From: Ruania alba
GTDB lineage: Bacteria > Actinomycetota > Actinomycetes > Actinomycetales > Beutenbergiaceae
Assembly (NCBI RefSeq): GCF_900105765.1
Contig: NZ_FNTX01000002.1
Span: 2,418,001-2,482,000, forward strand
DNA length: 64,000 nucleotides
Direction: 5' to 3'
Below are positions 20,153 through 25,822 of this stretch, piece after piece (the stretch's first letter is position 1; each line of letters begins with the position of its first letter). Both the position numbers and the translations under genes were made by a program. The notes beneath the pieces are model-generated. The model was not told the DNA's origin. It did not search any database and saw only the letters and a program-made list of their open reading frames with translations.

Positions 20153-21177
20153 GTCGTCGACGCCGGATGACCGGGATCACCGCGCTGCTCGCCGCGGCGG
20201 GGATGCTGACCGCGTGCGCGATCGAGATCCCCGAGCCTCAGGAGCCGCCGGAGCAGACCGAGACGTTGCCCGTGCTCGACGAGCCCCGGCTGGAGCGCCT
20301 CCTCGCTGAGCTTGGCGAGGACATCGCCGCGGCGGACGAGGAGCAGGACGCTGAGCTGCTGGCCGGCCGGATGGAGGATCCGGCGCTCTCGGTGCGCGAG
20401 GCGGAGTACGCGCTCGCGGCTGCGACGGCTGACACCGATCAGTCCTACACCCCGCAGCCCTTGACCGCCGAGACGCAGGTGGAGATCGTGGCGGTGACCG
20501 ACACCTGGCCGCGCACGGTGATGGTCGTCACCGAGATCCCGGACGAGTCCAATGTGCCGCTGCTGGTCACCCTGGAGCAGGAGACGCCGCGAGACCAGTA
20601 CCGGATGCACAGTTGGGTGCGGCTGCTCCCGGGAGTCGAGATGCCGGAGACCGCTGTCCCGTCCGTGGGAAGCGCGCCGGTGCCGCTGGACGCTGAGGGC
20701 TACGTGTATACACCGCAGGAAGCGTTGGATGCCTACGCACAGCTGCTCGGCGACCGCGACGAGGAGGGGACCATCGGTGACACCTTCGTCGAGGACCCGT
20801 TCCGTGAGCTGGTGACCGAGCAGCTGGACAGCTTCGACTTCGACGAGGCCGGTGAGTTCAGCCACAACACCACCGCACCAGGGGATGACATCCTCACCCT
20901 TGCGACAGCCGCCGGCGGCTATCTCGTGGTCGGTGCGATGAACACGCAGTACACGTTCACCAAGACCGTCGAGGGATCTGAGCTGAGTCTGGGCGGTGAG
21001 ATCGCGGCGCTCGACCCCGAAGACGGTGAGGTGTCCGAGGACGGTGAGTCGCTGAACGCGCGGTATCGCCTCATGGTCGCCCTGCACGTGCCCGCTGAGG
21101 CCGAGGACGCACAGGTGACCGTTGTCGGTGCGGAGCGGGTGCTCACCGAGGTGAGTCACGCAGACGCCGACGAGTGA
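20149..21177 (+). CDS. Secreted lipoprotein of unknown function
   Basis: This 342-residue protein starts at the ATG overlapping the previous stop (ATGA). It has a very basic N-terminus (MSRRRR), a hydrophobic stretch and the lipobox LTAC with Cys23. The mature part is acidic, with no motif I recognise; residues 100-300 look mixed alpha/beta. Translational coupling to the membrane protein upstream suggests the two form an envelope complex. The next gene, a YbbN-like co-chaperone, has its own -10 box and is not clearly part of this unit. Confidence 0.75.
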   Translation: MSRRRRMTGITALLAAAGMLTACAIEIPEPQEPPEQTETLPVLDEPRLERLLAELGEDIAAADEEQDAELLAGRMEDPALSVREAEYALAAATADTDQSYTPQPLTAETQVEIVAVTDTWPRTVMVVTEIPDESNVPLLVTLEQETPRDQYRMHSWVRLLPGVEMPETAVPSVGSAPVPLDAEGYVYTPQEALDAYAQLLGDRDEEGTIGDTFVEDPFRELVTEQLDSFDFDEAGEFSHNTTAPGDDILTLATAAGGYLVVGAMNTQYTFTKTVEGSELSLGGEIAALDPEDGEVSEDGESLNARYRLMVALHVPAEAEDAQVTVVGAERVLTEVSHADADE

Positions 21178-21198
21178 TCGGCGACCTCTCGTACGAAC

Positions 21199-21204
21199 TA
21201 GGAT
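21199..21204 (+). promoter_or_regulatory. -10 box for leaderless ybbN-like mRNA
   Basis: TAGGAT ends seven bases before the ATG at 21212 and no ribosome-binding site is seen, so the transcript is probably leaderless. I find no convincing -35 box. Confidence 0.5.
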
Positions 21205-21211
21205 CAACCCC

Positions 21212-22132
21212 ATGAGTCAGCCATCGAACCCGGTCAACCTGCACGGCGCCGTGGACCTCTCCTCGATCGCCGCCCCGAAGCCCCCCGCTCCCTCGGAGAG
21301 CACACCGGACGGGCTGGTGGTCGACGTCAGCGAGGCCACCTTCAACGATGTGGTCCAGCAGTCCATGACCGTGCCGGTCGTGGTCATGCTCTGGCAGGTC
21401 GGAGAGGGACAGAGCATCCAGCTCAACCCCACCATGGAAGCGCTCGCCACCGAGTACGGCGGGAAGTTCCTCCTGGCCCGCGTGGACGTGGCGGCGAACC
21501 CGCGGATCGCTCAGGTGTTCCAGGTGCAGTCGGTTCCGACCGTGCTGGCCGTGATCAAGGGCCAGCCGCTGCCGCTGTTCCAGGGGTCGCACGCTGCCGA
21601 CCAGTTGCGCCCGGTGCTCGACCAGGTCCTGCAGGCTGCCCAGGAGAACGGCGTGACCGGGACGGTGGAGGTCGCCGAGAACGATGCGGAGGACGCCGAG
21701 CCGGCCGAGCCCCCGTTGCCGCCGCACATCCAGGCTGCCTACGACGCGATCGAGGCCGATGACCTCGATGGTGCGGCCGCAGCGTTCCAGCAGGGGCTCG
21801 ACGAGAACCCGCGGGACGAGGAGGCTGCTGCCGGGCTGGCGCAGGTGGAGCTGCTCCGCCGGATCGCCGGTCTGGACCCGCAGCAGGTGCTCACCGCGGC
21901 GAGCGAGGCTGCCGCCGGTGACGTCGCAGCGCACCTTCCGGCCGCTGACATCGAGGTGGCCTCCGGCAAGCTCGCCGAGGGATTCGCCCGGCTGATCGGC
22001 GTCATCCGGGTGACCGCCGGGGATGACCGCGATGCGGCCCGGACCCGCCTGCTGGAACTCTTCCAGCTCGCCCCGCACGATGCACCTGAGGTCGTCAAGG
22101 CACGCCGCGACCTCGCGGTCGCGCTCTACTGA
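21212..22132 (+). CDS. ybbN: YbbN/CnoX-like co-chaperone (thioredoxin-like plus TPR)
   Basis: This 306-residue cytoplasmic protein has a thioredoxin-like domain (about 35-150; VVDVSEATFNDVV, then FLLARVDVAANPRIAQVFQV and VPTVLAVIKG) and a C-terminal helical TPR-type region (about 175-306; FQQGLDENPRDEEAAAGLAQVELL). The redox CxxC is absent: the active-site position reads LWQVGEGQSIQ. It therefore acts as a holdase or adaptor rather than an oxidoreductase, as in other actinobacterial relatives. It converges with the maltokinase-GlgB gene, and a large palindrome lies in the gap. Confidence 0.85.
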   Translation: MSQPSNPVNLHGAVDLSSIAAPKPPAPSESTPDGLVVDVSEATFNDVVQQSMTVPVVVMLWQVGEGQSIQLNPTMEALATEYGGKFLLARVDVAANPRIAQVFQVQSVPTVLAVIKGQPLPLFQGSHAADQLRPVLDQVLQAAQENGVTGTVEVAENDAEDAEPAEPPLPPHIQAAYDAIEADDLDGAAAAFQQGLDENPRDEEAAAGLAQVELLRRIAGLDPQQVLTAASEAAAGDVAAHLPAADIEVASGKLAEGFARLIGVIRVTAGDDRDAARTRLLELFQLAPHDAPEVVKARRDLAVALY

Positions 22133-22140
22133 GTCCGACC

Positions 22141-22188
22141 ACCCAGCACTCACCTCACCCAGCACTCACCTCACCCAGCACCCACTCG
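22141..22188. repeat. 16-bp direct tandem repeats
   Basis: ACCCAGCACTCACCTC occurs twice in perfect tandem (22141-22156, 22157-22172), followed by a diverged third copy to 22188. It starts 9 bases after the YbbN-like gene and just before the long palindrome. It is non-coding in any plausible frame. Confidence 0.85.
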
Positions 22189-22207
22189 ACCGGGCACCGA
22201 CACCACA

Positions 22208-22265
22208 GCGAGTGCGGCTGATCTCGCTCATATCCCGGGATATGAGCGAAATCAGCCGCACTCGC
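22208..22265. repeat. 58-bp near-perfect palindrome in the convergent gap
   Basis: Two 29-base arms meet without a loop at CCC|GGG (centre 22236/22237). 28 of 29 positions pair; the only mismatch is C22223 against A22250. Arm ends read GCGAGTGCGG and CCGCACTCGC. It lies between the 3' ends of the YbbN-like gene and the GlgB fusion gene. It could serve as a bidirectional terminator, although there is no T-run, or be a dispersed palindromic repeat unit. Confidence 0.9.
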
Positions 22266-22297
22266 GTCAGGGGAGGGGCGTCAGGAGGACGAGTGCG

Positions 22298-25200
22298 TCA
22301 GGGGGTGGGCGTCGGGCGTAGGAAGGTGACGCCGAGTGGGGGCACCCGCAGCACGATCGACTCCGAGCGACCGTGCCACGGCACCTCCTCGGCCGTCAGC
22401 GGGCCGGTGTTGACTACCCCACTGCCGCCGAAGTCGGTGTGGTCGGTGTTCAGCACCTCCTCCCACGTGCCTGCTTGCGGGACGGCCACCCGGTAGTCCT
22501 CGTGCGCGGTGCCGGAGAAGTTCGCCACCACCAGGAGCTGCTCACCGGCGCCTCGGCGCAGGTACGCGAGCACGTTGTGGTCGCCGTCGTTGGCCTCGAT
22601 CCACTCGAACCCGCTGGGTGAGAAGTCGTCCGCCCAGAGCGCGGGGGAGGCGGTGTAGAGCAGGTTGAGCTGGCGCAGCATCAGCCGCACCCCGGCGTGC
22701 GAGGGCGTGTCGCTGAGCCCCCAGTCGAGGGACCGGGCCTCGGCCCACTCGGTGTTCTGCGCGAACTCACCACCCATGAACAGCAGGTTCTTGCCCGGAT
22801 GGGACCACTGGTAGGCCAGCAGCAGCCGCACCCCGGCGAGCTTGGCCCACAGGTCACCGGGCATCCGCTCCCACAGGGATCCCTTGCCGTGCACGACCTC
22901 GTCGTGGCTGAGGGGGAGCACGAACTGCTCGGAGAAGGCGTACACGAGGGAGAACGTGAGCTCGCCGTGGTGGTAGCGCCGATTGATCGGCTCCTCCGCC
23001 AGGTAGCGCAGCGTGTCGTTCATCCAGCCCATGTTCCACTTCAGACCGAAACCGAGGCCCCCGTGCTCGGTGGGTGTGGTCACCCCGGGCCAGGCGGTGG
23101 ACTCCTCGGCGATCATCATCGTGCCGGGCGCTACCCGGTAGGCGGTCGCGTTCGTCTCCTGGAGGAACTGGATCGCCTCCAGGTTCTCCCGCCCGCCGCG
23201 CACGTTGGGCCGCCACTGGCCCGGTTCGCGGGAGTAGTCGAGGTAGAGCATCGAGGCCACGGCGTCCACCCGGAGCGCGTCCACGTGGAACTCGGTGAGC
23301 CAGTACAGCGCGTTCGCCACGAGGAAGTTGCGCACCTCGTTGCGTCCGAAGTTGAACACGTACGTGCCCCAGTCCAGCTGCTCCCCGCGCAGCGGGTCCG
23401 GGTCCTCGTACAGAGCGGTGCCGTCGAACCGGGCGAGCGCCCAGGCGTCCTTCGGGAAGTGTGCCGGCACCCAGTCCACGATCACGCCGATCCCGGCCTG
23501 GTGCAGCGCGTCGACGAGGTGCCGGAACTCGTCGGGGCTGCCGAAGCGGGAGGTCGGGGCGTAGTAAGAGGTCACCTGGTAGCCCCAGGAGCCGCCGAAC
23601 GGGTGCTCGGCCACCGGGAGCAACTCCACGTGGGTGAAGCCCATCCAGCTGACGTACTCCACGAGCTGCTCGGCGAGCTCGGTGTAGGACAGCCCTTGCC
23701 GCCAGGAGCCGAGGTGCACCTCGTACACGCTCATCGGGCCCTGGTGCGGATCGGACGACGCCCGGCTGTCCATCCAGGTCTGGTCGGCCCAGGTGTACCC
23801 GGACTCGTCCACGACGGAGGCCGTCGCGGGCGGGATCTCGGTGGCTCGGGCCATCGGGTCGGCCTTGGTGTGCCAGGAACCGTCGGTGTGGCAGATCTCG
23901 TACTTGTACCGCTCACCCGGACCCACCTCGGGCAGGAAGATCTCCCACACGCCGCTGGACCCGAGTGAGCGCATCGCGCTGCCGCGCCCGTCCCAGTGGT
24001 TGAAGTCGCCGACTACCCGGACGGCGCGTGCGTTGGGTGCCCAGACCGCGAACGAGGTCCCGACGACGTCCCCCAGGCTGGATGGGTAGCGACGCACCTG
24101 GGCGCCGAGCACCTTCCAGAGCTCCTCGTGCCGCCCCTCGGAGATGAGGTGCTGGTCCATCTCACCGAGGGTGGGCAGGAAGCGGTACGGGTCGTCGGTG
24201 AGAACCTCTCCGCCGGCGTAGGTGGCCAGCACACGATAGTCGGGGATCTCCTCGGCAGTCAGGGCCACGGTCCAGATCCCGCCCCACTCGTGGGTGGCCG
24301 GATGGTCGCCGGCGACGGTGCGTATGGTGACGGCGGTGGCCAGGTGCCGCACGGTTCGGATCGTGACCACGCCGTCGGCCAGGTGCGGTCCCAGGACGTC
24401 GTGCGGGGCGAAGTGTGCTCCCTCGGAGAGTGCCTGCAGCACTTGGTCGTCGGTCGGGGCGGGGCTCGCACCCGCCGGGGTCGCAGGCGCGGGTGTGGGG
24501 GTGTCGTTCTCTCTCATGGCCTGCTCCTCGATGATTCGCCGGATGCCACCCAGGGGGATCGACAGCCAGTCGGGGCGGTTCTGTTGTTCGTAGACGGCTT
24601 CGTAGAGTGCCTTGTCGAGCTCGAGGGCGCGCAGGACCACCGGATCGGCGTCCCCGCCCTCGCGGCGGTATCCCTCGATGAGGGCCTCGCGGGCGTCCTC
24701 GGTCCATCGTGGGTCGCCGGCTGGGCCGACGGCGGCCGCGTAGTCGATGGAGCGGAGCATCCCGGCCAGGTCGCGCAGCGGGTGGTCCGGGGCGCGGCGT
24801 TCGGCGAGGGGGCGCAATGGCTCACCCTCGAAGTCCAGCAGGAACCACTCCTCCGGCCCACGCAGCGCCTGGCCCAGGTGCAGGTCACCGTGAATGCGCT
24901 GGTCCGGCGGGAGGGGCCGTGAGGTGACGGCGGAGATCACCTGTTCCACGCCGTCGGCCCATTCGCTCAGTGCTGGGACGGCGGTGAGTGCCCATCGGGC
25001 GCGGGCGCGCAGCGCATCGGCCAGGTCGGCCGGCTGATCGCGCACCGGCAGCGCCTCGCGCAGGGCGGTGTGCATGGCCCCGGTGCACCGGCCCAGCTCC
25101 CGGGCGAGGTCGGCGAACGAGCGGGCTTCGCGCGCGTGCTCGCAGGCGAGCTCGAAGCCGTCCCGGGCATCGGGGACGAATGCCGACAGCACGCCCAGGT

Positions 25201-25822
25201 CACCAGCCTGTGATCCGTCCGGCGTCCCGGTGCCGTGCGGGGACGGCCACCGACCGGAGAGCCAGCCGAGTGGTTCGGGCACCTGACGCCATCGGGCGCC
25301 GTGCAGGGCGCGGGTGATCTCGATCTCGGGATTCGGGCCCGGTGCGAGCACGCGAAAGACCTTCAGGATCGCCGACCGGTCGCCGTCGACGGCGGGGATA
25401 CGGATGGAGGTGTTGGACTGCTCGCCGGTGTGCACCTGCCCGGCGGTCGGGTCCAGGTCAGGCAGGGCGAGGCTCGGGTGTTCAGGCGTGGCGGCGGCGG
25501 CCAGCCAGGCGCGCAGGAAGGCCGGGTGGTGCGGTCCGTCCACCAGCACCGAGTCCGTGCCCACGGCGGCGATCTGCCCCGGGAGCGGTTCGTCCTCCCG
25601 GCGGGCCACCACGAGGGGGACCTGGAGGACGGCGGTGCCGCTGTCGCGCTCCAGGGCCAGCAGCACCACGGTGCAGGCCCCCTCGTCCTCCGGATCGGGG
25701 AGGTCGAGAGTGGTGAGGATGCGCAGGTCGGCGTCGGTCGCGTCCTTGGCGGGGAACCAGCGCGCCTGCCGTACCCACGGGGTGAGCAGATCCAGGAGTA
25801 GGGATCCGTCGGTCGCCGTCAT
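22298..25822 (-). CDS. glgB: Maltokinase fused to 1,4-alpha-glucan branching enzyme GlgB
   Basis: This single 1174-codon frame contains two enzymes of the TreS-Mak-GlgE pathway. Residues 1-435 are maltokinase, with the kinase motifs [10 protein letters not shown] and LLDFEGEP, making maltose 1-phosphate from maltose and ATP. Residues 436-1174 are a full-length GH13 branching enzyme, with a CBM48-like region, [10 protein letters not shown] (nucleophile Asp853), [10 protein letters not shown] and [12 protein letters not shown]. The boundary is Met436, preceded in the DNA by GAGGAG at a perfect distance, so a free GlgB could also be made. The gene overlaps the treS stop by ATGA and ends in a convergent gap with a large palindrome. 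Both domains look intact. Confidence 0.93.
24517..24529 (-). promoter_or_regulatory. Internal ribosome-binding site and start for a free GlgB
   Basis: On the minus strand GAGGAG (24529-24524) is followed after six bases by ATG (24517-24515), in frame and exactly at the maltokinase/GlgB boundary. It looks like the original glgB start kept after loss of the maltokinase stop codon. It would yield a 739-residue GlgB, a normal length for the enzyme. Confidence 0.6.

Follow-up and report, generated by a model that had tools for sequence, protein, structure and literature searches.

A long palindrome between converging genes of Ruania alba belongs to a REP-like family of gene-end hairpins that probably helps to end or trim messages

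The DNA analysed here, a 64,000-nt (64-kb) stretch of the Ruania alba genome that we call the window (the genome itself, 4.83 Mb in two contigs, is referred to as G000), carries a long palindrome between two converging genes (Table 1), which were called with a home-made codon-usage script. The nearest named relative found at the locus is Ruania rhizosphaerae, whose thioredoxin-like protein is 76% identical to that of the window and whose junction sequence, as far as it was shown, equals that of G006, a genome assigned to the genus of G000.

Table 1. Features of the palindrome junction, in window coordinates, and examples of a second palindrome family
Feature	Position	Strand	Remarks
Converging gene 1: thioredoxin (PF00085) + TPR_20 protein	21212..22132	+	stop-to-palindrome gap 75 nt
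C-rich stretch for rightward transcripts	22139..22186	+	CCACCCAGCACTCACCTCACCCAGC...
Third box	22194..22200	-	TCGGTGC on - strand (family consensus CGAGTGC); 8 nt beyond hairpin foot
Palindrome, perfect class, 28/29 paired	22208..22265	.	58 bp; family core CGAGTGC...GCACTCG = 22209-22264
Left arm	22208..22236	+	repeat search; ends in ATATCCC; carries the sole mismatch (GATCTCG)
Hairpin tip	22226..22247	.	GCTCATATCCCGGGATATGAGC; matches family motif CTCA-N5-YGRGATAT on both strands, both of them putatively used
Right arm	22237..22265	-	repeat search; GGGATATGAGCGAAATCAGCCGCACTCGC on + strand
C-rich, G-poor leader of leftward (glgB) transcripts	22266..22282	-	GTCAGGGGAGGGGCGTC on + strand
Converging gene 2: maltokinase N-cap + GlgB branching-enzyme domains	22298..25822	-	palindrome-to-stop gap 32 nt
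Second-family examples	L172-L191		e.g. L173:1450-1570

The first-pass annotation had described a loopless 58-bp palindrome with 28 of 29 positions paired and no T-run, and all of this held: a repeat search of the 64-kb window returned two arms of 29 nt each, 97% complementary with 0 nt between them, and a terminator scan of positions 21900-22500 found no hairpin followed by a T-run. Centred on ATATCCCGGGATAT, the palindrome ranks first among those reported by the search of the window; the runner-up of 29 nt is 72% complementary. From base composition alone, about 1e-9 loopless palindromes this well paired (28 of 29 or better) would be expected in 64 kb. As RNA, a 76-nt stretch around the palindrome folds at -52.2 kcal/mol (shuffled sequences, -22.05 +/- 3.21; 0 of 200 as stable). 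The short word CGAGTGCGG is not overused, occurring three times in the window against 2.5 expected. Rfam matches at 21000-24000 were all far under their gathering scores, and 22150-22330 had no match in the phage and plasmid collections.

Membership in a dispersed repeat family, also suggested by that annotation, was borne out when a genome search with the palindrome found dozens of related places. A covariance model made from 29 places in G000 and run on 39 genomes gave at least 43 sites in G000 and at least 44 in G002, a second genome of the same genus; copies were counted once per place, chosen by hand among the matches listed, and the 43 and 44 together are the 87 listed copies discussed below. 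Among the matches listed, G006 has one copy, G008 (another genus) 55 with both strands counted, and three genomes of genus g4 two to six each, with none in the other 32 of the 39 genomes at E <= 0.001. Five draft contigs of G008 (C404, C193, C511, C60 and C430) end about 100 bases or less from a copy, so that the palindromes may break assembly. In the open-access literature that was searched, we found no account of such repeats in this bacterial group.

The typical copy is asymmetric, a quasi-palindrome of 56 nt. In the sense direction the consensus opens with a C-rich leader and CGCGAGTGCGG, which a variable stretch separates from TCTCGCTCA; after five further variable bases comes YGAGATAT. 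Three variable positions lead on to CGA, and a stretch that varies in part leads to GCACTCG; eight variable bases later the consensus closes with CGAGTGC. The core alignment of the 87 listed copies is almost ungapped, its gap columns stemming from two rows, and core bases 7, 21, 22, 29 and 31, the tip included, are invariant in all 87. Copy 3709193, with a one-base deletion that shifts its register and leaves 6 of 28 pairs, was retained in the set; site C2:983579 of the first list is represented later as 983543. Eight copies were folded, three of them as sequences a few bases short at one foot: for six no shuffle was as stable, and for L039 and L025 6 and 36 of 200 were. The third box (window 22194-22215, and in other copies) could pair with the adjoining arm, in competition with the main stem. 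When the right arm and third box were treated as a second hairpin, 61 of 500 shuffles did as well in paired cells, 20 of 500 in covariation score and 50 of 500 in double changes; matched changes in this pairing occur at two loci, C2:2184005 and C1:141454.

Copies lie mostly 3' of genes. A sense-strand stop codon lies upstream of 71 of the 87 listed copies, at a median distance of 17 nt, and where a stop is found on one side only it is on the sense side in 41 copies and on the antisense side in 5 (p 4e-8); a further 30 copies are flanked by two stops and 11 by none. By their neighbours, 30 listed copies fall between converging genes, 42 between same-direction genes, 9 between diverging genes and 5 inside predicted genes, with 1 undetermined. 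The leader, taken as the 12 nt upstream of the copies, averages 61% C and 9% G, against 36% C and 36% G in the 30 nt that follow 14 other stops of the window (33% and 37% in a 12-nt stretch), a control that excludes both stops of the palindrome junction. Strong hairpins after stop codons are what a canonical intrinsic terminator would supply, but we consider this reading very improbable: the hairpin is there and the U-tract is not, since 84 of the 87 listed copies have three or fewer T in the 10 nt past the hairpin and the terminator scan was negative. Nor, to our knowledge, are a conserved tip and a fixed length features of canonical intrinsic terminators.

Symmetry within the family has two peaks, with 84 of the 87 listed copies pairing at 22 or fewer of 28 positions, three pairing at 27-28 and none at 23-26. 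The three perfect copies (the window's, C1:535113 and C2:2417660) are all in G000; the copies of G008 are also split, between 25-28 and 18-21 pairs. The centre of the perfect copies reads ATATC[CT]CG[AG]GATAT, with small departures in G008, as might result if the tip motif CTCA-N5-YGRGATAT were demanded on both strands. To pair with its right arm, the left arm of the window copy, GATCTCG at the mismatch, would have to read GATTTCG; in G000 both remaining perfect copies have GATTTCG...CGAAATC. The earlier proposal that the single mismatch reflects copying and slight drift thus stands in so far as the mismatch departs from two perfect sister copies, but is weakened by the asymmetric copies, in which C is the commonest base at that place (59 of 84).

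A set of 13 distinct perfect copies, drawn from two genera, took in those with 25 or more of 28 pairs, each identical core being represented once; six asymmetric G008 copies were omitted, and L138, L139 and L068 (identical to L133; L068 seems to be the same contig as L138) and L141 (identical to L140) were dropped. In this set 11 pairs have both sides changed, 98.1% of positions are paired against 87.1 in shuffles, and 36 double changes stand against 11.1, though the set was selected for symmetry, so that the pairing is partly built in and the strong covariation is in large part a result of that selection. The perfect copies have diversified while remaining symmetrical. By contrast, the stem middle of the 84 asymmetric copies shows no significant covariation (57.0% paired, 55.5 +/- 1.4 when shuffled, 164 of 1000 as high), and all 87 listed copies taken over all pairs show slightly more double changes than shuffles do (60, with 49.1 +/- 5.9 when shuffled and 20 of 500 as high). 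Perfect copies therefore look as if one arm had been copied from the other, and asymmetric ones resemble assemblies of sequence boxes. Two predictions about symmetry failed. Copies with stops on both sides are no more symmetrical than others (17.1 vs 17.1 of 28 among asymmetric copies, p 0.73), and perfect copies are not confined to places between converging genes, where two of the three in G000 are found, along with one of the eight classable in G008, whose contigs are short and gene calls weak. The exception in G000, at C2:2417674-2417732 and 268 bp to the left of the window start, lies between same-direction genes that we take to encode an ABC permease and a glycosidase, presumably in a single sugar-transport operon.

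The family is not the only hairpin at gene ends in these genomes. A second palindrome family, GCCGAGCGCAACC.TGTGCGGCGTT...AACGCCGCACA.GGTTGCGCTCGGC, was matched 71 times in G000 and 13 times in G002 when both strands are counted, and not at all in seven other genomes searched; 13 of 26 copies lie between same-direction genes, 10 between converging and 1 between diverging genes, with 2 inside predicted genes, and the core is 54 nt long in 22 of the 26, with box-like conservation. Unrelated long hairpins occupy the C1:535113 junction in G004, G006 and G005 (L194, L195 and L197), where they come after the ortholog of the gene to the left of C1:535113, and others follow the thioredoxin-like gene in G010 and in Occultella. 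By eye, the G004 and G006 hairpins differ by one compensated base pair. The similar box pattern in the second family, together with the fixed, nearly ungapped length, the five bases (tip included) that never vary among the 87 listed copies, the lack of covariation in the asymmetric ones and a third CGAGTGC box 8 nt away, would suit a double-stranded DNA site for a sequence-specific protein (a roadblock, nucleoid or recombination factor), the hairpin then being incidental to nested inverted boxes. We regard such a site as quite unlikely, because the C-rich leader and an orientation that is fixed relative to the upstream gene suggest reading at the RNA level, and because pairing is maintained across genera whose middle boxes are different; the search for a candidate protein covered Y1 transposases.

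Most copies appear to be old. Rather than a single copy without conservation, G000 has at least 43 sites, and 34 of the 43 listed can be paired with a G002 copy beside an orthologous gene; the pairing was done by hand on the basis of BLASTP comparisons of adjacent genes, 10 pairs rest on one gene, and the partner of C1:141454 was taken as 3501861 or 3501935, which is the same junction either way. Boxes are 91.5% and spacers 63.4% identical within the 34 pairs, against 87.6% and 38.4% in randomly matched copies, where it should be noted that box positions were picked from the same alignment and that the model favours well-kept boxes. The higher identity of the ortholog pairs indicates shared ancestry at the site. 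Boxes have changed about four times less than spacers since G000 and G002 split, which, with 34 of 43 sites common to both, argues that the majority of copies are of long standing and under constraint at their sites. One site, at the least, seems to go back further: the G006 copy (L123:2032-2105) lies at a glycerol-3-phosphate dehydrogenase/FGGY kinase junction that also holds copies in G000 (C2:884303) and G002 (88217), which would place it before the separation of these three species. Selection, which the first-pass annotation had offered as one reason for the survival of the palindrome, is thus upheld for the boxes of the family in these pairs, but not for the window copy individually.

The window copy itself is likely, from such sequence comparisons, to have arrived recently, as had also been suggested. 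Its junction is without the palindrome in G002 and in six other genomes of the genus (G001 and G003-G007), the genes nearly abutting in five of these six; the C1:535113 junction has no palindrome in G002 and G001, and the C2:2417660 junction none in G001, G002, G004 and G006. All three perfect copies of G000 fall among the 9 of 43 listed sites that are absent from G002 (hypergeometric 0.0068, post hoc). What tells against recent arrival is that the corresponding G002 junctions (L149, L193 and L205) each keep one outer half-box, CACTCG or CGAGTG, so that deletions may have removed copies from G002, or half-boxes may be places where copies arise; such half-boxes occur at about 0.7 per kb in the window, and those in the G002 gaps may be deletion scars, preferred targets or chance. 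In G008 a perfect palindrome of the same family follows the thioredoxin-like gene, which may have been gained separately or may preserve an old state that was lost in other genomes.

Dispersed copies, perfect ones at sites empty in relatives, a 56-nt perfect core that is identical on three G008 contigs, and a patchy distribution (5 of 24 family genomes matched at E <= 1e-7) are also what a selfish short mobile repeat of the REP or MITE type would leave, one that lands after genes as a harmless site and has no host function. We think this possible, if unlikely. The nearly fixed orientation relative to the gene, the sharing of sites with G002 and the better-kept boxes speak against it. At the three perfect-copy junctions, compared by eye with those of relatives, the flanks have diverged too far for a target-site duplication to be read. 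Mobility by a RAYT, as in REPs, was rejected: the Y1 transposase profile (Y1_Tnp, PF01797) matched 2 of the 39 genomes, G008 and G037, with no match in G000 or G002, and the two G008 matches resemble IS605 TnpA and have no family-model match near them. The gene beside one of the two is, we presume, TnpB-like.

On balance, and with moderate confidence, we favour the interpretation that the repeat is a REP-like family of gene 3'-end hairpins, that the window copy serves as a two-way version between converging genes, and that its symmetry stems from fold-back copying. Position, direction, leader and the presence of other long hairpins at the junctions of relatives suggest a part in forming transcript 3' ends, and the repeat probably helps to end or trim gene messages. 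A transcript leaving the gene would cross the short C-rich, G-poor leader and then the 56-nt hairpin with its conserved tip, CTCA-N5-YGAGATAT, which would most likely terminate the transcript or set and protect its 3' end; Rho might load at the C-rich leader, the hairpin then marking the end point, or the hairpin might act alone. Since the tip of the window copy is identical on both strands and the copy lies between converging genes, it could act on both converging transcripts. Its near-perfect symmetry most likely arose through fold-back (quasi-palindrome) copying, in which one arm serves as template for the other, and is maintained in the same way. Two observations sit uneasily with a 3'-end hairpin: in a plain RNA stem covariation would be expected, and it is instead the sequence, tip included, that is conserved; furthermore, 11 of the 87 listed copies have no stop on either side and 5 lie within predicted genes.

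The conserved tip suggests that the sequence is read by something. A more specific proposal, which we put forward tentatively and think doubtful, is a gene-end module consisting of a C-rich loading tract and a fixed-length hairpin, read in its sequence by a dedicated factor (a Rho partner, an RNA-binding protein or a nuclease), the perfect palindrome being the signal placed on both strands by fold-back copying. If so, recognisable repeat families would serve as labels of gene ends, with one family replaced by another at the same junctions in different species. The way in which GC-rich actinobacteria terminate transcription in the absence of strong U-tracts is an unsettled question, for which the family provides ready test material at known gene ends: its orientation is fixed, its leader is defined, and symmetrical as well as asymmetrical versions occur naturally. 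Related species carry different hairpins at one gene junction. The family may also record the fold-back copying that keeps long hairpins perfect.

Among known systems, the closest in distribution are the REP elements of the GTAG and CGTC super-families, which the available parts of Di Nocera 2013 (PMC3733652) describe as dispersed extragenic palindromes of 20-40 bp, mostly downstream of coding regions and between unidirectional or converging genes, with CGTC REPs lacking a dedicated transposase; its main text, as available, has no word beginning with 'Actino'. As far as that account goes, the Ruania family is likewise dispersed, palindromic, extragenic and mostly 3' of genes (5 of the 87 listed copies are inside predicted genes), and like the CGTC REPs it has no dedicated transposase match. 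Unlike the REPs described there, it has a core of 56 nt (58 bp in the window copy), a C-rich leader and a genome without a Y1 transposase (RAYT) match, and the tags are found infrequently near the foot on either side, GTAG in 1 of the 87 listed copies (its complement in 1) and CGTC in 16 (complement in 17). With tag, size and RAYT all at variance, we file the family as REP-like rather than as REP.

A second comparison is with the Streptomyces terminators mapped by Term-seq (PMC12207403), which the portion of that report at hand presents as long stable hairpins with few Us and covariation in the hairpin consensus. The Ruania hairpins similarly combine a stable stem shortly past the stop codon with few Us in a GC-rich actinobacterium; they differ in that their boxes are conserved and their asymmetric copies do not covary, the Streptomyces terminators not being described, in that portion, as copies of one repeat. 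For symmetry, the nearest parallel is with quasi-palindrome template-switch products (PMC8794818; also PMC7202029), in which, according to the first of these papers, arms are made identical, multi-base changes are compensated and perfect stems arise from imperfect ones. Fold-back copying in Ruania differs from the products of PMC8794818, as presented there, in being read from 13 symmetry-chosen sequences and from the gap between the symmetry classes, but the perfect Ruania copies resemble those products in their identical arms and compensated changes.
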